From Oceanospirillum multiglobuliferum (lineage in GTDB: Bacteria; Pseudomonadota; Gammaproteobacteria; Pseudomonadales; Halomonadaceae), in contig NZ_FUXG01000015.1 in assembly GCF_900167095.1 (NCBI RefSeq), positions 32,669 through 96,668 on the forward strand: a stretch of DNA of 64,000 bases, given 5' to 3'. The position numbers were made by a program, and so were the translations under genes. Numbering within the stretch: position 1 is the stretch's first letter; every line of letters begins with the position of its first letter. The notes under the pieces are model-generated. The model did not search any database. It saw only the letters and a program-made list of their open reading frames with translations, and was not told the DNA's origin. Positions 83-18,929 of this stretch are shown here, in pieces.

Positions 83-3000
83 TTAAATTGAACCTGATCC
101 TGGTCCTGATACAGAGTAAACCAAGAAATCAATATCTTCGAAGTTAACACTGCCTGCATTATTACCAATAGTATTGGTGTTATTAAATGTGACGTCATGA
201 AGATACGAGGTATGATAACTATTTGAACCAATTGAGAAACGATCAGTGTAATGTCTGCTTGTTTTAGTCCCGACTAGTAAATTGCCACTAATATCAATGC
301 CTATAGCTTTGTTTGGGCTATTTATGTATTCAATATAATAGTACTTATTATCTGCAAAAGTATTATAGTCTTGAACCTTTTCAAGGTAGCTAAGGCCTAT
401 CAGGCTAGAAGGGGACAATATGGCAGAAATATCTAGCTCTATCTGATCATCTTCACCAAAGCCTGTTAAATCAAGCGCTGTGCTTGGAATAGCGTTATAA
501 TGAATAGTAACCTGCTTGTTAGCCAAGTCTGCATTGTCACCTGAAGCGAAACTGGCAGTTGTTACTTCATCTTCACCTTTAATACCATCACCATTAGCAT
601 CAATGTAAGCACCCGTTGTTTCAACAATAACGCGGATAGGTGTGATATTTTCAATAGCTAAGGTACTAAATGAGGCTAGATCATTACCTGCAATATCTTG
701 TATTGCACTTACATCGTTATTGGCAGTTGGGCCAGTATAGCTAAGCTGCAAGGTTTCCCCTGGCACCACAGTACTAGTCAGCGTTAAAGTCACCGTTTTG
801 GCGGTTGCATCAACGCTTAGGCTGTTCACGGTTATAGTATTTGACACACTACCCGTTACCGTAAAGGCACTTGCAGCAGCAATATTAGTGCTGTCTAGGT
901 TTAAGCCATCTTGTAAGGTAAATATCAGCTGGTTGCCATTGGCATAGGCATTTTCAACATTTAAGTTCAGTATACTAGGAGCTACAGTATCTAAAGTGTA
1001 TGACAGCGAGCTTGAGGAACTTGAACTATTGCCCGCTAAGTCTTCCACTGTTGCGCTCAGTGCTTTTATGCCATCTTCGCCTAAGCTGCTAGTGGTAATG
1101 TCTACATAGCCATTATTTAAATCTTCCCTTGTGATATTCGCAAAACCAACCTCTTCACCATTCAACATGATGCTGGCTTTACCCTCAAGGCTTGAGTCTT
1201 CACCACCAAAGCTTGAGTCTTCACCACCAAAGCTTGAGTCTTCACCATCAAGGCTTGAGTCTTCACCATCAAGGGTGATGCGTATTGTAGGCGTGTCATC
1301 ACTGCTGATATTGTCAGAGCTAGAAGCGCCTGTATCAGAGTCTTCTCCAACAACGTACAAGGTTGGGATATTGGGTACTGTTGTATCTAATGTATATTGC
1401 AGTGAGGCAGAGGAACTTGAACTATTACCCGCTAAGTCTTCCACTGTCGCGCTCAGTGTTTTAACGCCATCTTCGCCTAAGCTGCTGGTTGTGACCTCAA
1501 CATAGCCATTGCTGAGGTCTGTATTCGTGATACTCGCCCAGCCCACCACACTACCATTCAATGTGACGTTGGCTTTACCACCCTCAAGGCTGGCATCTTC
1601 ACCATCAAGGCTGATACGTACTGTAGGGGTTGTGTCGCGGCTGATCTTGTCAGCGCTAGAAGCGCCCGTATCAGAGTCTTCACCGACAATGTTTAAGGTT
1701 GGTATATTAGGTGCAATAGTATCCAGCACATAGTCTTGACGACTTTCTGTGCTGCTATTACCTGCAATGTCTGTCACTTTAAACCTGATAGAGCTGCTAC
1801 CGGATAACGACACTGAGCTCCAACTTAGTTGTGTGCCATCCTCTCCCAGCATGTTGTTCAGATTAACCCAGTTTTCGCCACCATCACTTGAGCCATACAA
1901 GGTGTCACCGCTAGCTAGTTGAGTATTTAATGTCCCTCTTACCCACTGGTTTGATATGCTGGTTACAAAGTCTTCGCCACTGATACCCGTGTCTTCACCT
2001 ATGGTAATGTTGTTCACAGTCTCTGTCGCAACTGTGTCAAGTGTATAAGACAGAGTATCCGTCGAATTGGTGCGGTTGCCTGCAAGGTCTTCCACAGTCG
2101 CGCTCAGTGCTTTAATGCCATCTTCGCCTAGAGCACTACTGGTGATCTCTACGTAGCCGTTGCTGAGGTCGGTAGCGGTGATATTCACGCTGCCTACTGC
2201 ACTTGCCCCTGAGCTCAAGATCACTTTGCCACCAGTGAGGCTGGTGTCTTGGCCGTCTAAGCTAATACGTATGGTTGGGGTGGTGTCATAGCTGATATCA
2301 TCGGTATTTAAGGTGCCTGTATCGGAGCTTTCCACAAGATCCAGCGTAGGTGCTGTTGCTGCTTTGCTGTCCAGAGTATAGGTTTGGCTGGTTTCTTCCC
2401 CATTATCACCTAGGCTGTTACGCACTTTAAAGCGCAGTGAGCTACTGCCATTGAGTGTCACTCCTGTCCAGGTTAGGGTGGTAGTGTCACTGCCTATCAT
2501 GTTGTTGATATTCACCCAATTGGCACCACCATCGGCTGAGCCATATAACACCTCGCCTTCGGCCAATGCTTCACTTAGCGTTGCGGTAACCGTTTGACTG
2601 GCAACATTGGTGATAAAATCATGACTACTAGTGCCGCTGTCTTCGCTGATATCAATATTGGTGACTTTAACGGTGGGTAGAGCCGGCGTAGTGTCTTTTA
2701 GGGTATAAGACAGTGACTGAGTCTGAGTATTTCCTGCAATATCTTTGATGCTGATGGCGATATTTTTTACGCCACTGTCACCTAGGTCTCGGGTCTTAAT
2801 ATCAATGTAACCCGTGTTTATATTGGCTTGGCTTATGGTGGCAGAGCCTATTGGGCCCAGACCCGAGTACAGGTCTATTTTACCTCCTAAAAGGCTGGAG
2901 TCACTAGAGTCGAGACTGATGCGAACGGTTGGTGTTGGATTGCTGTCCAATCCATCCAGTATCTTAGCTGACAACGCAGGTGTTGTTGTATCTAGGGTAT

Positions 3001-5122
3001 AGGCATAGATGGCAGAGGTAGACTGGTTGCCTGCGGTGTCTGTTAGTGTGGCGGTTAACGCTTTACTGCCGTCTATTCCTAACGTGCTGGTTTCTATTTC
3101 AATGTAACCACGACTGATATCGGTTGTACTGATCACCGCGCTACCGACTGGCGCACCATTTGCGTTGAGTTGTACGGTAGTGCCAGCTAATCCTGCATCT
3201 GATTTTAAGCTAATGCGTACGGTGGGCGTTGCATCTTGGCTGATGTTGTCGGTGTTAGATAGCCCTGTATCCGAGCCCGTATTAAGGCTGAGCGTTGCAG
3301 CCTGTAGATTGGTATCTAGCGTATAAGATAAAGCGGTGGCTGCACTCTCGTTACCTGCTTTATCGACTATTGTAGCTACAAGCTGTTTAACGCCATCTGC
3401 ACCCAGTGCCGAGGTTGTAATGTCAATATAGCCTTGACTACGGTCAGCTTCTGTCAGAGTTACAGAACCAATCAATGCACCATTACTGGTTAAACGAAGC
3501 TGCCCTCCCACTAACGAGCTATCAGCGCTTTCAAGACCAATACGCAAGTTAGGCGTGGTTTCTTTACTGATGTCATCGGTGTTTGACAATCCGGTGTCTG
3601 AATGGTCTGCAACGTCTATTGAAAGAACAACGGGGGCGGTGGAGTCAACTAGAATAAGGGTTGCAGGGCTTTCGATCCCCTCATTAATATGATAACTAAC
3701 AGAGGTACGCCCTTCTTGTGTTGAGCTGATCAGGTTGCTAGGCACTGCTAGGTTTGCTAGGCCTGATGCGTCAAAATCTGTGCTGGAAATGGTGGCTGTA
3801 AATATACTTCCTCCCCAGTTTACCGTCACCACATCCCCTGCTACCGCACCTTTAATGCCTACAGTAATACCTGCTGCTTTTTCCGCGGCATTAATACCGT
3901 CTGTGGCAGAAGAGATGATCGGTGGTTGAACTAACGAGTTACCTAAGTCTGCTTTGTCTTTATTCTCACCTTCCTCGAACTTTTCAACCCCTTTTTTAAG
4001 TAAATCTACCCCTTCTTGGTTCATCGCAAGGCTATTTTGGCCAGTTGTGCTTGAGGCTTGGGGCACAATAGCATCTTCTAACTGCTTCAGTGTGTTCGAT
4101 AGACTGCCAGTGTGTTTATCTGCACCCGAAAGTTGAGCCAGTACTTCACCGTAACGCTCAGCACTATTGATGCCATCAGTTGTCTGGAAATTAACATCCA
4201 CCACCGTAGTCACAGGGGCTAGAATGTCGTCCAAGCCGAATAAGGTGGCCACTTGAGCGTTTGCTTCAAGGTTTGCTTCAGTCACAATGACTGTTTGTGT
4301 GCCATTGGCTTTATTCGCATCAATAGTGGCTTTATCTGCGATATTGGCTTTACGCGCTGCTAACTCCGTTAAAGGGGTTACGCTTAAATAAACATCACCA
4401 GTCCCGTTGGCATAGCCCATTGCTCGTAAAGGTTCACTACCCAAGCTCACTAAAGTATTGGTTGCTTCATCTAGGTAGTCGCCTTGGTCACCGTTAATGT
4501 CGCTGACAAACACCACAAAAGGGCCTTTATAGTCACTGGCGATGTTCAGCTTGAATTGGCCGCTTGCCACATCATATTGACCGCTGCCTAATGAGTTACC
4601 ATTGTTATCATAGATGTCCACTTGAACTTCTGAGACAAAAGGTCCCGCTACGGCAGAGACCACAATGTTGTAGCTTGAAGGTGTTGGTGTCGGTGTGACC
4701 TCTTCAGATGCACTGCTAGAACCATTGCTTGAAAATAATGCACCAGCACTTGCCAGAGCGCCCCAGAGTATGCCTGAGCCATCGGAGGTAGGCCATACAA
4801 CCACCTCACCTTCATCACTCTTTGTTGTATCTTCACTGCTGGCGACAATATTCTCCGCAGAAATTTCAGCACCGATGCTGAAACTGGCAGCGGTACCTTC
4901 AGTATAAAACTGATCAATAATGGCGACGGGTTTATCATCAACTTCAATTTCAAGTTGATCACCCTTGCGTTTTAATACCAAGTTCTCAGGTTGTTGTTGC
5001 GTCTCAGAGTCTACAATAATGTAAGTAGCACCTTGCGATGCAGTTAAGGTTGCAAGGTTATGCAAGGCGATTTCACGCGTAATTTGCCCACGTGTTTTTT
5101 CAATTAACATTATTGTATTCAA
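83..5122 (-). CDS. Large BapA-type repeat adhesin, probable type I secretion substrate
   Basis: 1679 residues, acidic, Ser/Thr/Asp-rich. The N-terminal 90 residues resemble the BapA-type prefix domain, followed by a Trp/Gly/Ala-rich hydrophobic patch near residue 115-130. About residues 494-1379 are eight consecutive bacterial Ig-like units; six share an SDTG...D.IS..TTPT.RI.L core and two carry an LYGS.DGG.NWVN core. Residues about 1379-1494 resemble a SwmB-type domain. The last 185 residues contain a DANGDGI calcium-loop-like segment. No RTX nonapeptide array and no Sec signal peptide are visible, and no type I secretion genes lie in the window, so the export route is inferred. Start: TTG at 5122 has GGAG six nt upstream, whereas the in-frame ATG at 5110 is too far from it; an in-frame stop upstream excludes further extension. 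Inferred role is cell-surface adhesion or biofilm matrix. Confidence 0.85.
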   Translation of the reverse strand: MNTIMLIEKTRGQITREIALHNLATLTASQGATYIIVDSETQQQPENLVLKRKGDQLEIEVDDKPVAIIDQFYTEGTAASFSIGAEISAENIVASSEDTTKSDEGEVVVWPTSDGSGILWGALASAGALFSSNGSSSASEEVTPTPTPSSYNIVVSAVAGPFVSEVQVDIYDNNGNSLGSGQYDVASGQFKLNIASDYKGPFVVFVSDINGDQGDYLDEATNTLVSLGSEPLRAMGYANGTGDVYLSVTPLTELAARKANIADKATIDANKANGTQTVIVTEANLEANAQVATLFGLDDILAPVTTVVDVNFQTTDGINSAERYGEVLAQLSGADKHTGSLSNTLKQLEDAIVPQASSTTGQNSLAMNQEGVDLLKKGVEKFEEGENKDKADLGNSLVQPPIISSATDGINAAEKAAGITVGIKGAVAGDVVTVNWGGSIFTATISSTDFDASGLANLAVPSNLISSTQEGRTSVSYHINEGIESPATLILVDSTAPVVLSIDVADHSDTGLSNTDDISKETTPNLRIGLESADSSLVGGQLRLTSNGALIGSVTLTEADRSQGYIDITTSALGADGVKQLVATIVDKAGNESAATALSYTLDTNLQAATLSLNTGSDTGLSNTDNISQDATPTVRISLKSDAGLAGTTVQLNANGAPVGSAVISTTDISRGYIEIETSTLGIDGSKALTATLTDTAGNQSTSAIYAYTLDTTTPALSAKILDGLDSNPTPTVRISLDSSDSSLLGGKIDLYSGLGPIGSATISQANINTGYIDIKTRDLGDSGVKNIAISIKDIAGNTQTQSLSYTLKDTTPALPTVKVTNIDISEDSGTSSHDFITNVASQTVTATLSEALAEGEVLYGSADGGANWVNINNMIGSDTTTLTWTGVTLNGSSSLRFKVRNSLGDNGEETSQTYTLDSKAATAPTLDLVESSDTGTLNTDDISYDTTPTIRISLDGQDTSLTGGKVILSSGASAVGSVNITATDLSNGYVEITSSALGEDGIKALSATVEDLAGNRTNSTDTLSYTLDTVATETVNNITIGEDTGISGEDFVTSISNQWVRGTLNTQLASGDTLYGSSDGGENWVNLNNMLGEDGTQLSWSSVSLSGSSSIRFKVTDIAGNSSTESRQDYVLDTIAPNIPTLNIVGEDSDTGASSADKISRDTTPTVRISLDGEDASLEGGKANVTLNGSVVGWASITNTDLSNGYVEVTTSSLGEDGVKTLSATVEDLAGNSSSSSASLQYTLDTTVPNIPTLYVVGEDSDTGASSSDNISSDDTPTIRITLDGEDSSLDGEDSSFGGEDSSFGGEDSSLEGKASIMLNGEEVGFANITREDLNNGYVDITTSSLGEDGIKALSATVEDLAGNSSSSSSSLSYTLDTVAPSILNLNVENAYANGNQLIFTLQDGLNLDSTNIAAASAFTVTGSVSNTITVNSLSVDATAKTVTLTLTSTVVPGETLQLSYTGPTANNDVSAIQDIAGNDLASFSTLAIENITPIRVIVETTGAYIDANGDGIKGEDEVTTASFASGDNADLANKQVTIHYNAIPSTALDLTGFGEDDQIELDISAILSPSSLIGLSYLEKVQDYNTFADNKYYYIEYINSPNKAIGIDISGNLLVGTKTSRHYTDRFSIGSNSYHTSYLHDVTFNNTNTIGNNAGSVNFEDIDFLVYSVSGPGSGSI
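1187..1270. repeat. 21-bp coding minisatellite, four copies, inside an adhesin Ig domain
   Basis: Four consecutive near-identical 21-bp units (1187-1207, 1208-1228, 1229-1249, 1250-1270) differ at only a few bases. They encode a 7-residue GEDSS-type unit in the eighth Ig-like domain; the neighbouring domain has a single unit at the equivalent place. Unit length is a multiple of three, so copy-number change keeps the frame. Confidence 0.9.
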
Positions 5123-5151
5123 GTAGAACTCCGGCGAGCAGGATTAGGGTT

Positions 5152-5232
5152 CGGTATTATCGGTATTATCGGTATTATCGGTATTATCGGTATTATCGGT
5201 ATTATCGGTATTATCGGTATTATCGGTATTGT
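5152..5232. repeat. 9-bp tandem repeat upstream of the adhesin gene
   Basis: Eight perfect copies of CGGTATTAT (5152-5223) plus a ninth with one mismatch (5224-5232). On the coding strand of the adhesin the unit reads ATAATACCG and ends 29 bp upstream of the TTG start. An in-frame stop between repeat and start shows that it is not translated with the adhesin. Each unit contains an ATAAT core similar to a sigma-70 -10 element, so copy number could alter promoter architecture or leader length. Confidence 0.92.
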
Positions 5233-5301: not shown

Positions 5302-5315
5302 TAGGGTTTTCCCTA
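5302..5315. promoter_or_regulatory. Palindromic element TAGGGTTTTCCCTA upstream of the adhesin
   Basis: Five-base inverted arms TAGGG and CCCTA around TTTT, 180 bp upstream of the adhesin start. The identical 14-mer occurs upstream of the Sel1-repeat gene at 12041-12054. Shape and placement suggest a dimeric regulator site; the regulator is unknown. Confidence 0.5.
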
Positions 5316-5339: not shown

Positions 5340-7184
5340 TTAATAATATTGAGTTAATTGTATGCAGATCTCTTCAATACCACAGGTCGACAGAGTATTT
5401 TTGCTCGGTAATCCCTTCAGCATACCAATCCAAGGTCTAGAAAGCACTTTTACAGCCATAGGTGACACTAAAACTTGCTCACACTGGCTGATTGGTGCGC
5501 CATAGCGCATAAGCTGTTCAGTGTCGTAAACGACAATCGCTTGATGTAAACTTTGATGTCGCAACATCACCTCTGTTGCTTGCTGTGGCGACATACCTTC
5601 TGTGTTCAGTGTCAAGCTTCCGATGCTAACCTTTTGCTTACAGCTCCAGCCTTTGTCATCTGACAGGCTTTTCTGCTGCAAAATCTCCATTACAATATCT
5701 AGCTCCTCAGGCGACACCACAATAAAACAAATAGGCACAGAAGCAATAGTCTCACCTAAAACTTGCGTCCCCACGGTTAATGGATCTAGCCCAGATGAAA
5801 TTAATACATCAAGTCCGGGAGTTGTATTAACCTCAATAAATGTGCCTGCTCCCTCGCTCCAAGAGCGACTAATATCAGTGGTAATATAGTCAACCCCTGT
5901 GGTGTGAAGCCCCATTGTTGTTGCTATCGCTTCTGCTGCTTTAATTAAATCAGGATGAACGCCTGTACTAACATCAGTACCACTGCCACCTGTTGAAATA
6001 TTGGCATTGCTTCTTAAGCTAATTTTAACTCCAGTGGCAGGTACATAGTTTAAAGAAACATCCTGCTGCTCAAGTTGAGCAATTAAGACATCGTCAATCA
6101 TAATCGGTCGCTTATAAGCCGATTTTACTAAATTAGTAGTTCTGTTTTTGTTGAGTTGTTTTATTAGCTGGGAAATAGTTTGAATGCCATCCCCAGTAAT
6201 AGAGGCAGGATCGCGTCGAATAACCGCACTTACTTTTCCTCCTATCACCATTATTCGGTAGTCATCGCCTTCAATGTGACGCTCAACCATTAAACTGTCA
6301 CTACTGAACTTTCGAGCATAGTGATAACCTTTCTTTAATGTTGCTAAGTTTTGAATGTTAGCACTAACCCCTTTGCCGCCTCCGCAGTTCAGCGGCTTAA
6401 TTACACAAGGCCATCCTACTTTTAACGCAGCCTCTTCAAGCTGTTCTTGATGCTGAACCAGAAGGTACTGAGGAGTGGGCATTCCTAACTGAACAAATAT
6501 CTGTTTGCTGCTCACTTTTGAACCTGCCCAATGGGCAGCAAGCATACCGTCTTTATTTGAGGCCGATTCCATAAAAACTCTGGCATTGCAGCCCCATCCA
6601 AACTGCCAAAATCTAGAGTTCTCAATAAAAGGTAGAAATGGGATGCCGAGTTGTTGAGCCGCATACATTAATATTCTAGCTTGATAATCTGGATGGCACT
6701 GCTTGCAATCTAGCCACAACGCATTGAGTTGCTGATCAATGATGGCTTTATTCTGTATGCTGATACCTTCTGTAGAGTCTCCAGCTAACAATAATGCTCT
6801 AAGTGTAAGCTCTAAGGCCGTTTTACTGACTTGAATATGGTGAAAACCTAGCCAAACTTGAATACGGCCATCTGGAGTAACATCCGCACCTGCTGCCTGT
6901 ATAAAACCTCTAACTTCATTGAGCGCTGCCAAGGTCCACTGGGCAATGGTTTTACCAAGAAGAACTTGAGGTGATAGCTCAAGTGGAGGAGGATCTTTCA
7001 TCTCAGTTAAGTGCTGGCTGAGTTCATCAGAAAGCCACTCTGGATAATGAGCAAATAAATTCAGGCACCGTTGATATATTTCTTTGCTTATCAAACCTGA
7101 TGGTGTGATTAATGCGAGCAGTATTGGTTCTTTAGCGAAAGGGCTGATACCAGGGTAGTTGTGAATATATTGAATATCAAACAT
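5340..7184 (-). CDS. ATP-grasp amide ligase, cyanophycin-synthetase-like without Mur ligase domain
   Basis: 614 residues. An N-terminal region (about 1-220) precedes an ATP-grasp fold (about 225-470) with the signatures VIKPLNCGGGKGVS, VERHIEGDDYRIMV, the CphA-like ANISTGGSGTDVS.GVHPD and the metal-binding FIEVNTTPGLD. The last 140 residues are not recognised and lack a P-loop Mur ligase, unlike full CphA. Family knowledge: ATP-grasp enzymes of this type activate a carboxylate as acyl phosphate and join it to an amine. It is the last gene of a three-gene minus-strand operon: its ATG overlaps the stop of the FemAB-like gene by 8 bp. The closest relative in sequence appears to be the ATP-grasp part of the operon's first gene, suggesting duplication. 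The substrate is unknown. Confidence 0.85.
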   Translation of the reverse strand: MFDIQYIHNYPGISPFAKEPILLALITPSGLISKEIYQRCLNLFAHYPEWLSDELSQHLTEMKDPPPLELSPQVLLGKTIAQWTLAALNEVRGFIQAAGADVTPDGRIQVWLGFHHIQVSKTALELTLRALLLAGDSTEGISIQNKAIIDQQLNALWLDCKQCHPDYQARILMYAAQQLGIPFLPFIENSRFWQFGWGCNARVFMESASNKDGMLAAHWAGSKVSSKQIFVQLGMPTPQYLLVQHQEQLEEAALKVGWPCVIKPLNCGGGKGVSANIQNLATLKKGYHYARKFSSDSLMVERHIEGDDYRIMVIGGKVSAVIRRDPASITGDGIQTISQLIKQLNKNRTTNLVKSAYKRPIMIDDVLIAQLEQQDVSLNYVPATGVKISLRSNANISTGGSGTDVSTGVHPDLIKAAEAIATTMGLHTTGVDYITTDISRSWSEGAGTFIEVNTTPGLDVLISSGLDPLTVGTQVLGETIASVPICFIVVSPEELDIVMEILQQKSLSDDKGWSCKQKVSIGSLTLNTEGMSPQQATEVMLRHQSLHQAIVVYDTEQLMRYGAPISQCEQVLVSPMAVKVLSRPWIGMLKGLPSKNTLSTCGIEEICIQLTQYY

Positions 7185-8268
7185 AATCAGATTTATTTCC
7201 CAAGGTAATTCTAGCGATTTCTTTCAATTCTTTATTACAAAACCAATGTGCATTAACCACTTTTTCAGATTGAAATCCCCTGTAGTTTTTGTGTGATGCA
7301 CTAACACTTGTGTTGATAAATTTGATGTTGTTTTCTATCGCATATTCAATGGGTTTGTAGCAAACAAGCTCAAAACATAAGTTAGGAGTATTTTTTGACA
7401 TAGACCAAGTCTGAACATGAAGAGAACTTTTACTTAATAGGCAGAATACTCCTCCTAAAAAAACATTATCTTTATAAGCGGAAAAAGTTAGAATGGAATT
7501 AGGGATTCTCCTATGTAATTGTTCGAAAAAAGCTGTTGTTAACCAAGGTTTGCACTGATGAGAGGTGCAAACCTTCTCATAGCCTAAGTAAAATTCATGC
7601 CAGAAGTTTATATCAATATCCTCTCCTCTATGAGTTAGTATTTTTATTCCATTGTCATAGATTGAACTTCTGTCAAGGCGCATCATTCTACGTTTTCTAT
7701 GTCCAATACTAGCTACGTAATGATCAAATGATGAAAAATTATTGTTATACCAAACAGAGCTTTCTTCTTGACTTATTAACCAACCTTCTTTTTCTAAAAT
7801 ATCTGCATCCTCTGGCTGAGTATGCATAATGTTTAAAGCTTGTATAGAAGGGTTTGAGTTGGTAATGTCATAAAGTGCTTGAATTAGAAGCTTTTTTATA
7901 TATTGCTCTTTTTCACCTTTAAGTGTGAGCAACCTTGGTCCTGTTACTGGGAATAGAGGTACCCCTACCTGTAGCTTTGGCCAGTTAAAACAATGTCTCT
8001 CAATTCCTTTGTTCAGCCAGTTTATTTCTGGGCCAAACTCTCGCTTATTTCCCCACTTCATAGCAGCAGGAGCGCAGGCAAATATTTTCCCTGACTGATC
8101 TGTCATCGTAATATAAACGGGCTTAATTCCTTTTTCAGCAAGATTAATACTGTGTTCTAGCGCTAAAAAGAACTCATGCCGTAGATAAGGCTCATCTTCG
8201 GAGCAAGCATTCCAACCAATAGAATCAATTTCAGATATAGATGAATAAATATTTGTTCTAAGATTCAT
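7177..8268 (-). CDS. FemAB-like N-acyltransferase (GNAT fold, DUF482-type)
   Basis: 363 residues. Recognised as a DUF482/peptidogalycan-type FemAB-like protein by the order of motifs: GWNAC and PYLRHEFFLALEHS near the N terminus, NWPKLQVGVPLFPVTGPRLL around residue 95, the basic stretch HRKRRMMRLDRS near 190, and the C-terminal SHKNYRGFQSEKV (about 325-338). FemAB-like enzymes transfer acyl or aminoacyl groups to amines using a double GNAT fold. Sandwiched between two ATP-grasp ligase genes with overlaps of 11 bp (upstream) and 8 bp (downstream), so it is almost certainly co-translated and likely acts on the same metabolite. Base composition is clearly more AT-rich than its neighbours, compatible with a separate origin. 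The product is not predictable. Confidence 0.8.
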   Translation of the reverse strand: MNLRTNIYSSISEIDSIGWNACSEDEPYLRHEFFLALEHSINLAEKGIKPVYITMTDQSGKIFACAPAAMKWGNKREFGPEINWLNKGIERHCFNWPKLQVGVPLFPVTGPRLLTLKGEKEQYIKKLLIQALYDITNSNPSIQALNIMHTQPEDADILEKEGWLISQEESSVWYNNNFSSFDHYVASIGHRKRRMMRLDRSSIYDNGIKILTHRGEDIDINFWHEFYLGYEKVCTSHQCKPWLTTAFFEQLHRRIPNSILTFSAYKDNVFLGGVFCLLSKSSLHVQTWSMSKNTPNLCFELVCYKPIEYAIENNIKFINTSVSASHKNYRGFQSEKVVNAHWFCNKELKEIARITLGNKSDYV

Positions 8269-10933
8269 GCTTATTGAGCTCTTTTTCTACTGCAAAAAAT
8301 ATTTCTGGCTCAGATAAAACAACTAATATATCGCCATCCATAGAGTCATTCATCGCCATTTTTATTGCTAAAGATTGATCAGGCTCCAGCTGTATTTGGC
8401 TCAAAGCCACGCTTTGCTTTTCTAGTTCTTTAGAAAATGCTGTCAGCATATTTTGAACGGGATTATTTCCCTTATAGTCAATGGATTTTTCAACAAGCTT
8501 AGCATCACAACCTAGATAGAAATGGTTGAATGTTTTTGCAAGATAGGGTGCGCAAGCTGATAGGTGTGAGCGATGACGGTTACCCAGCTGTAAACACAGT
8601 ACCCGTTTTTTTCCAGTAACTTCTAAGCTATCAATAGCCTGACATAATACCTTGACGCCATCAGCGTTATGTGCGAAATCAAGCAGGACTTTGAATGGAT
8701 AGCCTTCAATAAAGTTGTATCGCCCAATATTATGCAAAGGAGTATTAGTAAAAGACGCTAAGCCAACTTTAATATAGTTAAACTCTACACCTTGCGCCCA
8801 AGCCAAAGTCGCAGAGAATAGAGCATTCATTTCATTAAAGTACCATAATCCTTTCATCGTTGCAGGAATGCTATTCACTGACATAAGAGGCGTCTGAGTC
8901 GCACCCTCTGCGAATACAATCCAAAGCTCTCCTTTGTGTTGTGCTAGGAATGCAGCGCGATTACCTTTGTGGAGATGCTGTTGAATAGCTGTATTAGATG
9001 CACTTCTTGATACTAGAATTAGCTCAGGTTTGCTGATAAATTTCTCTGACAATTGAGCTTCATTTAAACAAAGAGCATCATCTGCGTTTACAATAATCGC
9101 ATTTTGTGTTCGATGTAGCACACTAGCCTTTAGATTAGCCATCTCCTCTAAACTATTGATACCATCAACACCAATATGGTCATCTTGAATATTCAATAAA
9201 GCTGAGACTTGATACTGATCACAAGGATGACCAAAATACAAAAGCCCTTTTCTAGGAAGCTCAATTACAGCAGCCTCAACCACTGGGTCTCGTAGTAATA
9301 TTTTAGCTCCCGGATGGCCTGAAAGATTCCGATCTATAATTAAATCATTGTTAATCCAAACTCCATTGGTGGTACAAACACCACTTGTTTTACCAGAAGT
9401 TTTCCAAATATGGTGCAGCATTTTAGCAACGGTGCTTTTACCATTACTTCCAGTAATCGCGGCAACAGGTATGCGCGGCGATTGACCTTGAAATAGGGTG
9501 TCGAGTATCTCACTGTTGATATCGCGTTCAAGAGCAGAAAGCCAATGTGGCCTAAAGCCGGGTTGTGCGTTTACCTCAATAATTCCACCGCCTACATCTC
9601 GCCAAGACTGGCTAATATCTGGACATAGTAGATCAATGCCAGCAATATCTAAGCCTATAATTCTAGCTGCTCGCTCAGCAATAAGGCGATTATCAGGGTG
9701 TACTTCGGCACTAACATCAATAGCGGTTCCCCCCGTGCTAATATTAGCTGTGCGTCGCAGATAGATTGACTGGCCTGCTTTAGGTATTTCATTCACCTTC
9801 AAGTTTTGCTCAGCTAAACAAGATTGAGCTTCTTCATCTAGAATTAGCCTCATTAAGAGGCTGCGTTTATCCTGCCCTCTTCGGCTATCTTGATTGGCAA
9901 GCTCTATTAATTGGGCTACTGTCGACTGCCCATTACCAATCACAGATCCTGCAACTCTTTCTGTCGCAACTAGTAACTGCCCCTTAACAACTAAAAGACG
10001 GTAATCCTTACCTACAATGTGTTGCTCAACAATAACTTCTTGGCTTAGCGCTTTGGCTGCTTTAAAAGCCTGCTCCAGTTGTACCTGATTCCTAATATTT
10101 GGCGTAATGCCAACACCTTGGTCTTGATTATTCGGTTTGACGACTACAGGCCAACCAAGTTGCTGTGCAACCTGAAGTGCTTCTGACCAAATGCTCACTA
10201 AACAAGTATTAGGTGTAGGTATGCCATTGGCTGATAAGATTGCAATTGTTTGCGCCTTGTTTCTAGCTAATCGAGTAGCGATAGTACTGGTTGACTCGGT
10301 AAAGCTACTGTCTAAACGTTTCTGCTGGGCAGCCCAGCCAATGTTTAACACCCCATGTTCGATATCAATAGGGTAGCGTTTATCCAATGCTGATAGTGCA
10401 AAGCGCAAAGTGTTAGGTAATAAACCTGCTGGCTGGACTTGGTTAAGCCAAGTGTTAAGTTCAGCTGAAAGTTTCTTTTGAACGGTTGTATTAGTTGTTT
10501 CTTGTGACCAGAGCAGTAAATGTTTTATAGCCAATGACAAGGCTGCTTTTAGCACCTCTTTTCGTTGCCAAGGCAGTGCAATAGCGACACGAGTGCTTGA
10601 CGCCTCTAGAACTTCACCTTTGCCCACCGCATCTCTAGCAAGGCGTTGAATGGCGATAGTTAAAGAAATCACTTGTTCTGCAAAAAAAAGTGCTCCGCTG
10701 CTTTTGGTGGAATAGGATGAGTCTGCTGACACCAAACACCGCTCATCCATCGATTTATGGGTCTGTGCTCTACTGTGCATTGCACTTATATTTGCAGTAA
10801 TTTGGGCTGCATTTTTAGGCCAGTTATGAAGATCCGTATCAGTTGTTAGAATAGCAGTAGCAGTTGAGCCTGATAGTTTAGACTTAGCGCCGACATAAAA
10901 AAAAAGCGAGCTGAGATCTACATGAGAAAGCAT
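8258..10933 (-). CDS. Cyanophycin synthetase-like ATP-grasp/Mur ligase protein
   Basis: 891 residues, the length of CphA. Residues about 226-462 form an ATP-grasp domain (VVVKPNNQDQGVG, VEQHIVGKDYRLLVV, RRTANISTGGTAIDVS, IIEVNAQPGFRPH). Residues about 489-880 form a Mur-ligase-like domain with P-loop TGSNGKST, DDHIG and DFAHN. It differs from canonical CphA: GSNGKST for GTNGKTT, ELPRKG where CphA has an E.ARGG segment, and GNRHRS where CphA has GDRRD. CphA makes multi-L-arginyl-poly-L-aspartate, but these substitutions, two partner genes and absence of cphB nearby argue for another amide-linked product. First gene of the operon; its ATG has GGGG five nt upstream. Only 24 bp separate it from the upstream terminator, so the promoter overlaps that terminator or transcription reads through. 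Confidence 0.85.
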   Translation of the reverse strand: MLSHVDLSSLFFYVGAKSKLSGSTATAILTTDTDLHNWPKNAAQITANISAMHSRAQTHKSMDERCLVSADSSYSTKSSGALFFAEQVISLTIAIQRLARDAVGKGEVLEASSTRVAIALPWQRKEVLKAALSLAIKHLLLWSQETTNTTVQKKLSAELNTWLNQVQPAGLLPNTLRFALSALDKRYPIDIEHGVLNIGWAAQQKRLDSSFTESTSTIATRLARNKAQTIAILSANGIPTPNTCLVSIWSEALQVAQQLGWPVVVKPNNQDQGVGITPNIRNQVQLEQAFKAAKALSQEVIVEQHIVGKDYRLLVVKGQLLVATERVAGSVIGNGQSTVAQLIELANQDSRRGQDKRSLLMRLILDEEAQSCLAEQNLKVNEIPKAGQSIYLRRTANISTGGTAIDVSAEVHPDNRLIAERAARIIGLDIAGIDLLCPDISQSWRDVGGGIIEVNAQPGFRPHWLSALERDINSEILDTLFQGQSPRIPVAAITGSNGKSTVAKMLHHIWKTSGKTSGVCTTNGVWINNDLIIDRNLSGHPGAKILLRDPVVEAAVIELPRKGLLYFGHPCDQYQVSALLNIQDDHIGVDGINSLEEMANLKASVLHRTQNAIIVNADDALCLNEAQLSEKFISKPELILVSRSASNTAIQQHLHKGNRAAFLAQHKGELWIVFAEGATQTPLMSVNSIPATMKGLWYFNEMNALFSATLAWAQGVEFNYIKVGLASFTNTPLHNIGRYNFIEGYPFKVLLDFAHNADGVKVLCQAIDSLEVTGKKRVLCLQLGNRHRSHLSACAPYLAKTFNHFYLGCDAKLVEKSIDYKGNNPVQNMLTAFSKELEKQSVALSQIQLEPDQSLAIKMAMNDSMDGDILVVLSEPEIFFAVEKELNKHES

Positions 10934-10957: not shown

Positions 10958-10993
10958 AAAAAAGCCCGATCAATAGTATTAATTGATCGGGCT
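10958..10993 (-). terminator. Terminator of the cold-shock-domain gene
   Basis: Perfect 12-bp arms (10963-10974 and 10982-10993), 7-nt loop and T run on the minus strand (10963-10958). It lies between the cold-shock gene and the CphA-like operon, which are transcribed in the same direction. Confidence 0.85.
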
Positions 10994-11021: not shown

Positions 11022-11456
11022 TTAACTGATAACAGTTACATCCTCAGCCTGCATACCTTTGTCACTTTGCACTATGGCAAAACGAACGCGTTGCCCTTCA
11101 GCCAGTGAGCGATGTCCAGTTCCACGAATAGAGCGGAAATGAACAAAAACATCACCACCGGAGTCACGGGTAATAAAGCCAAACCCTTTTGAAACGTTAA
11201 ACCACTTAACAGTGCCCATTTCACGGTCATCATTTTCATCAATAACAATATTATTCGCAGGCTGCGGAGCCAACTGACCAACAATCGCAGCGCCAATAAA
11301 AGTGGTGATAAAAAACACAACAGCAGCACTAATATAGTGGCCATTTGCCAATAAGCCCTGATCCGCAGCTCCAGTAACCACATCAAGAACAAACGGGGCA
11401 GGGATTGCCATAACCAAACCAATTAACACACAACGAACAAATGAACTTTTGCTCAT
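11022..11456 (-). CDS. Membrane-anchored cold-shock-domain protein
   Basis: 144 residues. Two hydrophobic segments (about 8-30 and 43-65) precede a complete cold-shock domain (about 79-144) with the RNP motifs KGFGFI and DVFVHF. The domain is ordinarily a free 70-residue single-stranded nucleic-acid binder; here it would hang from the inner membrane. Family knowledge supports RNA/ssDNA binding; membrane localisation is inferred from the hydrophobic pair. Single-gene unit with its own strong terminator, divergent from slyX. Confidence 0.85.
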
Positions 11457-12040: not shown

Positions 12041-12054
12041 TAGGGTTTTCCCTA
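12041..12054. promoter_or_regulatory. Palindromic element TAGGGTTTTCCCTA upstream of the Sel1 gene
   Basis: Identical 14-mer to the element at 5302-5315; here it ends 80 bp before the Sel1-repeat gene start. Arms TAGGG/CCCTA flank TTTT. Confidence 0.5.
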
Positions 12055-14780: not shown

Positions 14781-17105
14781 TCACTTATTCTGTTTCTTCT
14801 GCGCTTGTGCTAACAACATACCCAAAGAACCTAATGCCCCTGAGTTTTTAGGTTCAGCTTTACTCTGATAGCTGTTTTGGCTGTTACGCTTACGGGGAGC
14901 TTCAGCACTGCTGCCACCTTTACTGGTTTGTGCAACAGGCTCATCATTTAAGCGCATCGATAGGGCAATTCGGCGACGCTGGGCGTCTACATCCAACACT
15001 TTTACGGTGACAATATCACCCGCTTTGACGACGGTGCGCGGATCTTCAACAAAGCGATCTGCCAGTGCAGAAATATGCACTAAACCATCTTGGTGTACGC
15101 CAATATCTACAAAGGCACCAAAGTTGGTCACGTTAGTGACGGCACCCTCTAAGATCATACCAAGTTTAAGGTCGCTGATCTCTTCAACCCCTTCCATAAA
15201 CTCTGCGGCTTTAAACTCAGGGCGTGGATCACGACCCGGTTTATCCAGCTCTTGCAGAATATCGGTCACTGTGGGCAGACCAAAATGCTCATCGGTGTAC
15301 TGGGTCGGATTCAAGGTTTTCAGAAACTCACTGTCACCAATCAGGCTCTCTAAACTACGCCCCGTTGTCGCTGCAATTTTCTTCACCACCGGATAAGCCT
15401 CGGGGTGAACCGCAGAAGCATCCAGTGGGTTTTTGCCGTTCATCACACGCAAGAAACCGGCACATTGCTCAAAGGCTTTTGGCCCTAAACGCGGCACCTC
15501 TAATAGGGCTTTACGGCTGTCAAAAGCGCCATGAGTGTCACGATGGTTGATAATATTTTGCGCCAAGGTCGCATTTAAACCTGACACTCGGTTCAGCAAC
15601 GCCACAGAGGCCATGTTCAGATCAACCCCTACCGCGTTTACGCAATCTTCAACCACGGCATCAAGGCTACGCGCCAATTGGGTTTGTGATACATCATGCT
15701 GATATTGACCTACACCGATGGATTTAGGGTCAATTTTCACTAACTCTGCCAATGGGTCTTGCAAACGACGGGCGATTGACACCGCGCCGCGAATACTCAC
15801 ATCTAGATCGGGGAACTCTTTGGCGGCCAGCTCAGAGGCGGAATACACTGAAGCTCCCGCTTCACTGACCATGATTTTGGCCACTTTGCGATCGGTGATC
15901 AGTTTCACCAGATCTGCTGCCAGTTTGTCGGTCTCACGGGATGCGGTGCCATTACCAATACTGATCAGATCAACATTGTGTTTCTGTACTAATTTTGCCA
16001 ATACTGCCAGTGATTCATTCCACTGATTTTTGGGGACATGGGGATAAATTGTGGCATATTCCAGCAGTTTACCCGTGGCATCCACTACCGCCACTTTTAC
16101 GCCAGTACGTAAACCGGGATCAAGACCTAATGTCGCCCTTGGCCCTGCAGGTGCCGCAAGCAATAGGTCTTTTAAGTTACCGGCGAATACTTTGATGGCT
16201 TCTGTTTCGGCTGCCTCGCGCAAGCGCCCCATTAACTCGGTTTCCAGATGAGTGAGCAGCTTCACACGCCAAGTCCAACGCACCACCTCTTTTAACCAAC
16301 TGTCTGCCGCACGACCTTGATCTTGAATGGCAAAGTGGTTGGCGATCATCTCTTCACAAGGGTGAACTTTGAGTTCTTCGCTATTGGGAATCACTAAGGC
16401 CAGTTGTAACGCCCCTTCGTTACGCCCCCTAAACATGGCCAATGCACGGTGAGAGGGTGTGTTTTTAATCGCTTCGTTGTGAGCAAAGTAGTCGCTGAAC
16501 TTCTCACCCGTTTGCTCTTGGCCCGTCACCACGCGTGACTGTAACTCACCCTGTTGCCATAGGGTGTCACGCAAGCGTTGCAGCAGTTGCGCATCTTCGC
16601 TGAAGCGCTCCATCAAAATTTGTTTGGCGCCATCTAATGCTGCTTTTACGTCAGTAATGCCTTGATCTGGGTTGAGATAAGATTCAGCAGTGCTGCTCGG
16701 ATCAAGTTCTGGCTGAGAAAACAGCGTCTCGGCCAAAGGCTCTAAGCCTGCTTCCCGTGCGATTTGCGCTTTGGTACGGCGCTTGGGTTTATAGGGTAGG
16801 TAAAGGTCTTCTAAGCGAGTTTTGGTGTCCGCTTCTAAAATCTCTTTTTTCAACTCGTCGTTGAGTTTGCCTTGCTCTTCAATACTTTTTAAAACCGTAG
16901 TACGGCGATCTTCCAACTCGCGCAGATAACGCAAACGCTCTTCCAAGTTACGCAGTTGAGTGTCATCTAAGCCCCCTGTGACCTCTTTACGGTAACGGGA
17001 GATAAACGGCACTGTTGCGCCTTCATCTAATAAGGCAATGGCAGCACTGACCTGTGGATGACGAACGTTTAGTTCATTGGCGATTCGCTGGGAAATCAGT
17101 TCCAT
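14781..17105 (-). CDS. tex: Tex family transcription accessory / RNA-binding protein
   Basis: 774 residues from the chosen ATG. N-terminal Tex helical region ([17 protein letters not shown]), YqgF/RuvC-like domain ([17 protein letters not shown]), helix-hairpin-helix part and a C-terminal S1 domain (about 648-715: [31 protein letters not shown]), then a basic low-complexity tail ending QAQKKQNK. Family knowledge: S1-dependent nucleic-acid binding associated with transcription. A longer frame reaches a GTG at 17186, but its extra 27 residues are unlike the family and [12 protein letters not shown] is the usual N terminus. Confidence 0.95.
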
Positions 17106-17329
17106 GAGTGGATTCTCTAATCGGTAAATATCAATAGCGGTAGTCAGCTCAACAGAAAGGCAGAGTGTAAATGAAATAGACGGCACTGCCCTAAGAATAG
17201 ATGCTGAATTCTATCTGGCTTTTTATACAGTAAAACAGTCGGTTAGGCAAAAAAATGACATAGAGGAAAAGACTGAGTGTATTGAGAGCGGGCATTCGAG
17301 AGTTGTAAAAAACATGCGTTAGAAACAAC

Positions 17330-17352
17330 AAAGGCGGACAATGTCCGCCTTT
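17330..17352 (-). terminator. Terminator of pckA
   Basis: GC-rich inverted repeat (17330-17340 and 17342-17352, effective loop about 7 nt) 20 bp after the pckA stop, followed on the minus strand by a T-rich but interrupted tail (TTTGTTGTTTC). Confidence 0.65.
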
Positions 17353-17372
17353 GCAGTGCCGAAATCAGAAGA

Positions 17373-18929
17373 TTACAGCTGTGGGCCTGCCGCGATGATC
17401 GCTTCGTCCACATCTTTGAACTTTTTGAAGTTCTCAACAAACTTAGCCGCCAGCTCTTGAGCTTGTGCGTCATAAGCTTCTGGATTGCTCCAAGTGCCAC
17501 GTGGATTCAGCAGTGCTGTATCCACACCTGGTACTTCAACTGGAACAGACAGGTTGATACCTTCTAGGTGAACAGTTTCAACTTCTTCCAGCGCGCCGCT
17601 CTGAATTGCAGAGATGATGCCACGCGTGGTTGGAATGCTGAAACGTTGGCCTTCACCGTAAGAGCCGCCAGTCCAACCTGTGTTCACTAGGTAAACTTTA
17701 GAGTTGAACTCTTCGATACGCTTGATCAGTAACTCTGCGTATTCAGCCGCTGGACGTGGGAAGAATGGCGCACCAAAACAAGTTGAGAACGTAGACTTAA
17801 TGCCGCCGCCTGAACCCATTTCAGTTGAACCTACCAATGCGGTGTAGCCTGATAGGAAGTGGTAAGCCGCAGCTTCTTTAGACAGTACAGACACTGGTGG
17901 TAGTACACCTGTCAGGTCGCATGTCAGGAATACAATAGACTTTGGCTCGCCTGCGCGGTTTTCCAGAACGCGTTTTTCAACGTGCTCTAAAGGATAAGCG
18001 GCGCGGGTGTTTTGCGTTAGGCTCACGTCGGTGTAATCCGCTACGCGGTTTTTGTCCAACACCACGTTTTCTAACACAGCGCCAAACTTGATCGCATCCC
18101 AAATGATCGGCTCATTTTTCTGAGACAGGTCGATACATTTTGCGTAGCAGCCGCCTTCAATATTGAACACAACGCCTTTGCCCCAACCGTGCTCGTCATC
18201 ACCGATCAGTGAACGCGCTGGGTCGGCAGACAAGGTGGTTTTACCTGTGCCAGACAGGCCGAAGAACAGTGTAGTTTCACCGTCATCACCCACGTTGGCA
18301 GAGCAGTGCATTGGCAGCACGTCTTTTTCAGGCAGCAGGAAGTTCTGTACAGAGAACATCGCTTTTTTCATTTCGCCCGCGTACTGCATGCCAGCCAGAA
18401 GCACTTTGCGTTTTGCGAAGTTGATGATCACTGCGCCATCAGAGTTGGTGCCATCGCGCTCTGGTTCGCAAACAAAGTAAGGAGCGTTGATGATCTGCCA
18501 CTCACTTTTGCTTTTCGGGTTGAACTGCTCTGGACGTACAAACAAGGTACGGCCAAATAGGTTGTGCCATGCAGTTTCAGTGGTCACACGGGTTGGCAGA
18601 TAGTGCTCAGGATCAGCGCCAACATGCAGCTCAGAAACAAAAGTATCTTTTTGAGTCAGATACTCTTCAACTCGATCCCATAGGGCATCAAATTTCGCCG
18701 CATCAAATGGACGGTTGATTGCACCCCAGTCGATGGCATCCGCAGTGCTTGGCTCTTCAACAATGAAACGATCCATTGGAGAGCGGCCCGTGCGGTGACC
18801 AGTAGAAACAACCAAAGCGCCATTGCTGGCTAACTCACCTTCCTGACGCTGAACGGCCAGTTGAACAAGTTCAGCAGTGCTAAGGTTAGTGAAAGTCATT
18901 ACAGAACTATCGTTAATCGATGTCGTCAT
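17373..18929 (-). CDS. pckA: Phosphoenolpyruvate carboxykinase (ATP)
   Basis: 518 residues. Kinase-1a P-loop [11 protein letters not shown], metal/substrate segment [18 protein letters not shown], and R(A)GRSPMDRF near the N terminus identify the ATP-dependent enzyme, which converts oxaloacetate to PEP. A second oxaloacetate enzyme, oadGAB, lies 21 kb away. The 640-bp upstream gap leaves room for extensive control. Confidence 0.97.

Follow-up and report, generated by a model that had tools for sequence, protein, structure and literature searches.

The 64,000-nucleotide stretch of Oceanospirillum multiglobuliferum DNA analyzed here (assembly GCF_900167095.1, contig NZ_FUXG01000015.1, positions 32,669 to 96,668 of the forward strand; hereafter the window) carries an operon of three minus-strand genes. 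As described in an earlier note on this DNA, their reading frames overlap by 11 base pairs (bp; genes 1 and 2) and 8 bp (genes 2 and 3) (Table 1). Gene 1 encodes a CphA1-like ligase, gene 2 a FemAB-like protein with a predicted FemX fold and gene 3 a CphA2-like ligase. We give about an even chance (roughly 0.5) to the reading that the three cooperate in making a branched peptide, independent of the ribosome and different from cyanophycin. Such a product would probably be part of the surface or of a secreted protein and not serve to store nitrogen. Gene 1 belongs to a coherent CphA-like family that combines conserved active sites with altered signature motifs and is tied to a predicted FemX-type enzyme, to which it is once fused. 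If true, CphA chemistry would extend beyond nitrogen storage and be paired with amino acids supplied by tRNA. A CphA-FemAB pairing is described in none of the titles and abstract openings that searches of an open-licence library listed, several of these lists being capped; the library excludes subscription papers and preprints.

Gene 1 belongs to a CphA1-like family of its own

Pfam analysis assigns gene 1 a RimK/ATP-grasp region together with the Mur ligase middle and C-terminal domains. Like CphA1 (PDB 7lgm, 7lgn, 7wac and 7lg5), it combines an N domain, an ATP-grasp domain and a complete Mur ligase in a single chain, but its score with the cyanophycin synthetase equivalog TIGR02068 is 627.7 bits and does not reach the cut-off of 850. 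We compared gene 1 with the best 119 of 2464 matches in a database of 5.8 billion proteins, which are 44-58% identical to it and some of which are labelled 'cyanophycin synthetase' by their source. Within this set of 120, gene 1 included, E[MLI]PRKG is present in 112 proteins and the GNR change in 96 (loose pattern), whereas E.ARGG occurs in none and GDRRD in one. Canonical CphA sequences carry E-x-ARGG in 9/9 and GDRRD in 6/9 cases. The N-domain primer-making site Cx19HxxEH is likewise found in 0/120 of the listed proteins; this site is non-obligatory and matched by 2/9 canonical sequences. An excerpt of PMC9262961 gives it for 83% of CphA1.

The three gene 1 motifs that had been named as deviating, GSNGKST, ELPRKG and GNRHRS, are all present. 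PRKG proved to be the signature of the family and GNR a widespread change within it, while the P-loop looks functional. The pattern G[TS]NGK[STG] is intact in 119 of the 120 listed proteins, that of O. multiglobuliferum among them, and GSNGKST is a minor change that retains the Lys and the Ser/Thr. We therefore rejected a degenerate P-loop. A 550-amino acid (aa) N-terminal extension of gene 1 at another locus (L094) was also rejected as a fusion, as it has no Pfam match and by eye resembles an out-of-gene frame.

Phylogenetic analysis was restricted to the ATP-grasp domain (71 sequences, 295 columns). The canonical set comprised nine CphA proteins from plasmids and genomes and two CphA1 fragments from PDB. 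Since a cyanophycinase gene lies within two genes of 4/6 plasmid CphA genes used, these are fair yardsticks. The 26 sampled gene 1 proteins form a single clade (ultrafast bootstrap support 95) apart from canonical CphA. The possibility that gene 1 clusters within characterised CphA1, raised in the earlier note, was looked at in this tree, where gene 1 falls outside the sampled CphA1. In a separate plasmid search with gene 1, the 15 matches listed were CphA relatives of 33-38% identity.

Active-site residues suggest an aspartate-like substrate

In TeCphA1, according to excerpts of PMC9427784, the acyl phosphate is stabilised by R309. The incoming aspartate is held at its β-carboxylate by R323 and N394 and at its α-carboxylate by R458, and E215 is the residue that contacts the side chain of the terminal Arg. 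The catalytic R309 and the Asp-recognition residues R323, N394 and R458 (TeCphA1 numbering) are retained in 26/26 gene 1 proteins, and K499 of the Mur P-loop and E558 are retained in gene 1. Because R323, N394 and R458 are kept throughout, the residue added by gene 1 is likely still Asp-like, judging from sequence. The position of E215 is Arg in 21/26 and that of H267 is Gln in 24/26 gene 1 proteins. The side-chain residue and the acceptor probably differ from those of Arg-cyanophycin.

Gene 3 has the layout of CphA2

Gene 3 matches ATP-grasp families in Pfam and scores 246 bits with TIGR02068. It had been described as the ATP-grasp half without a Mur ligase, a description that needs correction: the alignment of its family profile to CphA1 (profile positions 3-557) spans the N domain and extends as far as the first Mur lobe. 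The Mur P-loop pattern is found in 0/120 gene 3 relatives among the matches listed. With an ATP-grasp domain and a vestigial Mur lobe, but neither a P-loop nor a Mur C-terminal domain, gene 3 has the composition by which an excerpt of PMC9427784 defines CphA2, and at about 600 aa it is also alike in length (PDB 7ta5, 8fxh). The predicted model (predicted local distance difference test, pLDDT, 89.6) resembles CphA1 and CphA2 structures. Among the 50 matches listed for it, 7ta5 has the top target-normalised template modelling (TM) score, 0.75 (TM 0.72/0.75).

The 19 sampled gene 3 proteins nevertheless form a separate clade with 100% support in the ATP-grasp tree, in which the sole CphA2 is the 7ta5 fragment used as root. 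R309 and R323 are retained in 19/19 and N394 in 18/19 of them. The R458 position is Asp or Glu in 18/19, as opposed to Phe in 7ta5, and gene 3 may use another substrate.

The family occurs in Proteobacteria and Chlorobi. Scanning 84,980 species genomes yielded 25 loci with gene 3 relatives, from Chlorobi and Beta-, Alpha- and Gammaproteobacteria. It is rare within the class of the window, where 4/369 genomes have a match at E <= 1e-50, including O. multiglobuliferum itself; the other three matches are weak relatives of 28-36% identity. A plasmid search with gene 3 listed 15 matches with query coverage of at most 70%.

CphA-related ATP-grasp proteins are multi-copy: 119 matches, full-length CphA included, are spread over 25 genomes (G000, G509-G532) with 2-10 each. 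Most are of CphA2 length, their neighbours include glycosyltransferases, methyltransferases, radical SAM proteins and a 2-oxoglutarate (2OG) oxygenase, and together they resemble a large ligase family yet to be characterised. Some gene 3 relatives are fused, to a glycosyltransferase-2 domain (L038, 8743-11601) or to a methyltransferase domain (L099, 1047-3764, and P0114).

The ATP-grasp domain of both operon ligases is homologous to those of N-acetylglutaminylglutamine synthetase and GshF. Both identities were rejected, as the two proteins score 168.5 and 128.7 bits with TIGR03103 (cut-off 569) and 185.8 and 132 bits with NF002688 (cut-off 425).

Gene 2 is a FemAB-like protein with a predicted FemX fold

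The assignment of gene 2 as a FemAB-like gene of lower GC content than its partners holds, with a Pfam score of 236 bits for FemAB_like (PF04339) and a GC content of 0.35 against 0.42 for gene 1 and 0.425 for gene 3. Its predicted model (pLDDT 92.4) has the tandem-GNAT FemX fold and matches aminoacyl-tRNA-dependent amino-acid transferases, which points to an aminoacyl-tRNA rather than an acyl-CoA as donor. In contrast to the transferases FemX, FemA and MprF, gene 2 sits with CphA-like ligases. Of the proposal that the operon makes an unusual acylated product instead of cyanophycin, the second half is in keeping with the position of gene 1 outside the sampled CphA1, whereas the acylation would, by the fold of gene 2, draw on aminoacyl-tRNA.

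The genes recur in pairs

One protein of 1241 aa (P0160) is a fusion of gene 1 and gene 2. Genes 1 and 2 also adjoin on the same strand in genome G519 (gene 2 identity 40%) and are convergent neighbours in G521 (34%), an Undibacterium that we take to belong to the order Burkholderiales. Genes 1 and 3 are divergent neighbours at one locus (L033) and same-strand neighbours at another (L032), whose gene 3 carries a methyltransferase fusion. In G519 and in G521 all three families are present, but gene 3 sits on a separate contig.

Orthologs of gene 1 (E <= 1e-150, 44-53% identity) were found in 6/24 genomes reached via gene 3 relatives; in a seventh the ortholog is cut by a contig end. Among the 399 genomes of the order of G521, a gene 1 match at this threshold occurs only in G521 and in 0/398 others. 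The difference between 6/24 and 0/398 is significant (Fisher p = 1.8e-8), for sets that differ in taxonomy and in the candidates scored per genome (all in the 24, two in the order survey). Homologs were also matched by the length of their contigs, an indirect estimate to which we attach little weight. Non-self pairs of genes 1 and 2 numbered 3 (jitter null mean 0.15, maximum 3 in 2000), and pairs of genes 1 and 3 numbered 4 (null mean 0.56, maximum 4). Co-conservation, as proposed earlier, therefore extends to pairs of genes, by fusion and adjacency, and to the joint presence of the families in G519 and G521, but not to the contiguous trio.

A proposed pathway and its alternatives

Under our preferred reading, gene 1 would use its ATP-grasp site to extend the C-terminus of the growing chain by an aspartate-like residue and its Mur site to put on a side-chain residue, probably other than arginine. 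Gene 2 would take an amino acid from aminoacyl-tRNA and place it on an amine of the product, and gene 3 would couple the units so formed or connect the product with its acceptor.

Several points weigh against this pathway. The contiguous trio was found only in the O. multiglobuliferum window, and no gene 1 ortholog was found in 17 of the 24 gene 3 genomes, mostly draft assemblies. In the ATP-grasp tree the canonical CphA set is not cleanly monophyletic (best match 0.77, support 47), and the exact E[MLI]PRKG string is absent from 4/26 sampled gene 1 proteins. The changes at E215 and H267 are weak evidence because both positions vary among the canonical sequences, where E215 is Glu in merely 5/11 and H267 is His in 7/11 and Gln in 3/11. 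The retained Asp-recognition residues could equally be compatible with gene 1 making cyanophycin or a Lys variant of it. Gene 2 is only about 10% identical to FemX, a sequence search of gene 2 against solved structures gave zero matches, and a fold in itself says nothing about the type of donor. The roles proposed for all three families are inferred, and their products and substrates putative.

Gene 1 might be no more than a divergent cyanophycin synthetase whose product is cyanophycin or a Lys-containing variant, with genes 2 and 3 as helpers. Its full CphA1 layout, intact P-loop and Asp-recognition residues would suit this role, and an excerpt of PMC10206079 reports a recognisable cyanophycinase in 658 of 1614 CphA1 genomes, many thus being without one. 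We consider it unlikely given the separate clade, the score below the equivalog cut-off, the replacement of ARGG by PRKG, the near absence of GDRRD and the E215 position, which is mostly Arg. The earlier note had seen no cyanophycinase nearby, and this extends genome-wide: the O. multiglobuliferum genome (98.75% complete) contains zero matches to Peptidase_S51, the cyanophycinase family, and zero other CphA, although a cyanophycinase is non-obligatory for CphA1. Somewhat less doubtful is a small-molecule peptide, such as a natural product or an osmolyte, in place of a polymer. Related clusters contain methyltransferase fusions (L099, P0114), an AMP-binding gene with a DAO oxidoreductase and, by eye, two short GNAT-like proteins (L041), a radical SAM-SPASM protein (L101) and a 2OG oxygenase (L040), and by their titles the structures of FemX-like Sbb17 and Sba18 were solved with streptothrisamine. 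Such neighbours belong to the broader ATP-grasp family and 0 are in the operon, however, and the CphA1 and CphA2 relatives of established function produce polymers.

The operon could also be a post-translational modification cassette whose ligases attach amino acids or short isopeptides to the many Asp side chains of the neighbouring giant type I-secreted protein, either ahead of its export or in the course of it. Such a modification would call for the chemistry that CphA1 performs on Asp side chains. A giant protein lies on the same strand as the operon and, with a type I secretion system (T1SS), within the same 25-kb block. In Undibacterium (L104/L097), an RTX/DUF4214 protein, a T1SS ATP-binding cassette (ABC) protein, HlyD and TolC are followed by gene 1 and a convergent gene 2. 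In Ramlibacter (L025), a Cys-free 1411-aa protein shares one strand with three ATP-grasp genes, a 205-aa open reading frame (ORF), two T1SS ABC genes, HlyD and TolC; a 1718-aa minus-strand ORF at this locus was rejected, as composition favours the 1411-aa plus-strand gene. Cys-free giants lie near ligases in Undibacterium as well, and at L037 and L040. The counts do not uphold a strong enrichment. Cys-free giants occur at 5/31 ligase loci (466 kb) compared with 4/60 control windows (1,170 kb; p ~0.08) drawn from twelve of the ligase genomes, O. multiglobuliferum included, whose own control windows contain one in 2/6 cases. A T1SS membrane-fusion gene lies less than 20 kb from a ligase in only 4/25 genomes (O. 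multiglobuliferum, G516, G521 and G524; assigned by hand), and between the giant gene and gene 3 lie 217 bp that contain a palindrome and a tandem repeat. The link to a secreted giant protein is suggestive only, and we regard such a cassette as improbable. Still more speculative is a combined form in which the CphA-type ligase pair and the FemX-like transferase make up a tRNA-fed line that writes branched isopeptides onto the aspartates of giant type I-secreted surface proteins; if true, this would be a new kind of protein modification with chemistry borrowed from a nitrogen-storage polymer.

Genomic setting of the operon

The operon and the secretion cluster lie in one variable block; their joint arrival is a separate matter. 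That the block is variable follows from its outer markers, gshA (74% identity) and a gene for a 610-aa protein (94%), which are 25.1 kb apart here and 2.9 kb apart in G932, the one congener in which both block ends align and the 25-kb block is absent. Sequence next to gshA in G930, G931 and G934, along with a shorter piece from G933, likewise gave no match to block genes, and a search of all five congeners for gene 1 orthologs found none. In other genera of the family, 7/19 genomes contain CphA relatives that score 580-598 bits with the gene 1 profile. The one in G102 is 35% identical to gene 1 in a single-sequence search, and by sequence these relatives look like ordinary CphA.

The GC contents of the three genes lie below that of the window (0.461), and their GC at third codon positions (0.32, 0.28 and 0.36 for genes 1, 2 and 3) below that of 15 other window ORFs (0.477), which fits horizontal acquisition.

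Table 1 Features of the operon and its immediate surroundings, in window positions.
Feature	Position	Strand	Details
Gene 1, CphA1-like two-site amide ligase: N domain, ATP-grasp, complete Mur ligase	8258..10933	-	891 aa; signature E[MLI]PRKG; from domains, tree, motifs and residues
Gene 2, PF04339 FemAB-like protein, FemX fold predicted	7177..8268	-	363 aa; from Pfam, model and fold matches
Gene 3, one-site ATP-grasp ligase of CphA2 layout, vestigial Mur lobe without P-loop	5340..7184	-	614 aa; from domains, model and residues
Terminator-like hairpin, 12 pairs and T run	10963..10993	-	Between cold-shock gene and gene 1 start
Cold-shock-domain protein	11022..11456	-	144 aa; directly upstream, same strand; NCBIfam
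Giant protein with Ig-like (Big_13) and SWM repeats	83..5122	-	1679 aa; downstream, same strand; candidate client
Perfect 9-bp tandem repeat, 8.9 copies	5151..5230	.	In front of giant gene
14-bp palindrome TAGGGTTTTCCCTA	5302..5315	.	Second copy at 12041-12054, across the operon

Downstream of gene 3, the same strand encodes the giant protein, a tetratricopeptide repeat (TPR)-sulfotransferase, a cytidylyltransferase-like protein, TolC, a T1SS ABC protein and HlyD. The genes past the giant protein lie beyond the window edge and were read from locus L103. There, between the giant and the T1SS genes (15374-18673, minus strand), the 1100-aa TPR protein has a Sulfotransfer_3 domain and a LicD match just below the cut-off; it is a candidate modifying enzyme for the secreted protein. 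The 9-bp tandem repeat in front of the giant gene is a possible phase-variation switch.

The palindrome TAGGGTTTTCCCTA has four exact copies in the 3.5-Mb genome, two of which flank the operon together with the cold-shock gene, 6.7 kb apart. This pair may be the footprint of an insertion. The hairpin that separates the cold-shock gene from the gene 1 start codon is strong and about 30 bp from that start. The best NCBIfam model of the cold-shock protein is the CspE antiterminator, under its cut-off (94.8 against 120 bits), and the protein could possibly control read-through of the hairpin into gene 1. The tRNA genes within the window (Ser and two Arg) are at least about 14 kb away from the operon.

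A further cluster was observed in Cycloclasticus (L041, 2574-15115), behind ExbBD-LpxK-cytidylyltransferase genes. It encodes three ATP-grasp proteins, a methyltransferase, the AMP-binding enzyme and the DAO oxidoreductase and, by eye, the two GNAT-like proteins, a second methyltransferase and a threonine-synthase-like protein, and looks like a peptide biosynthesis cluster.
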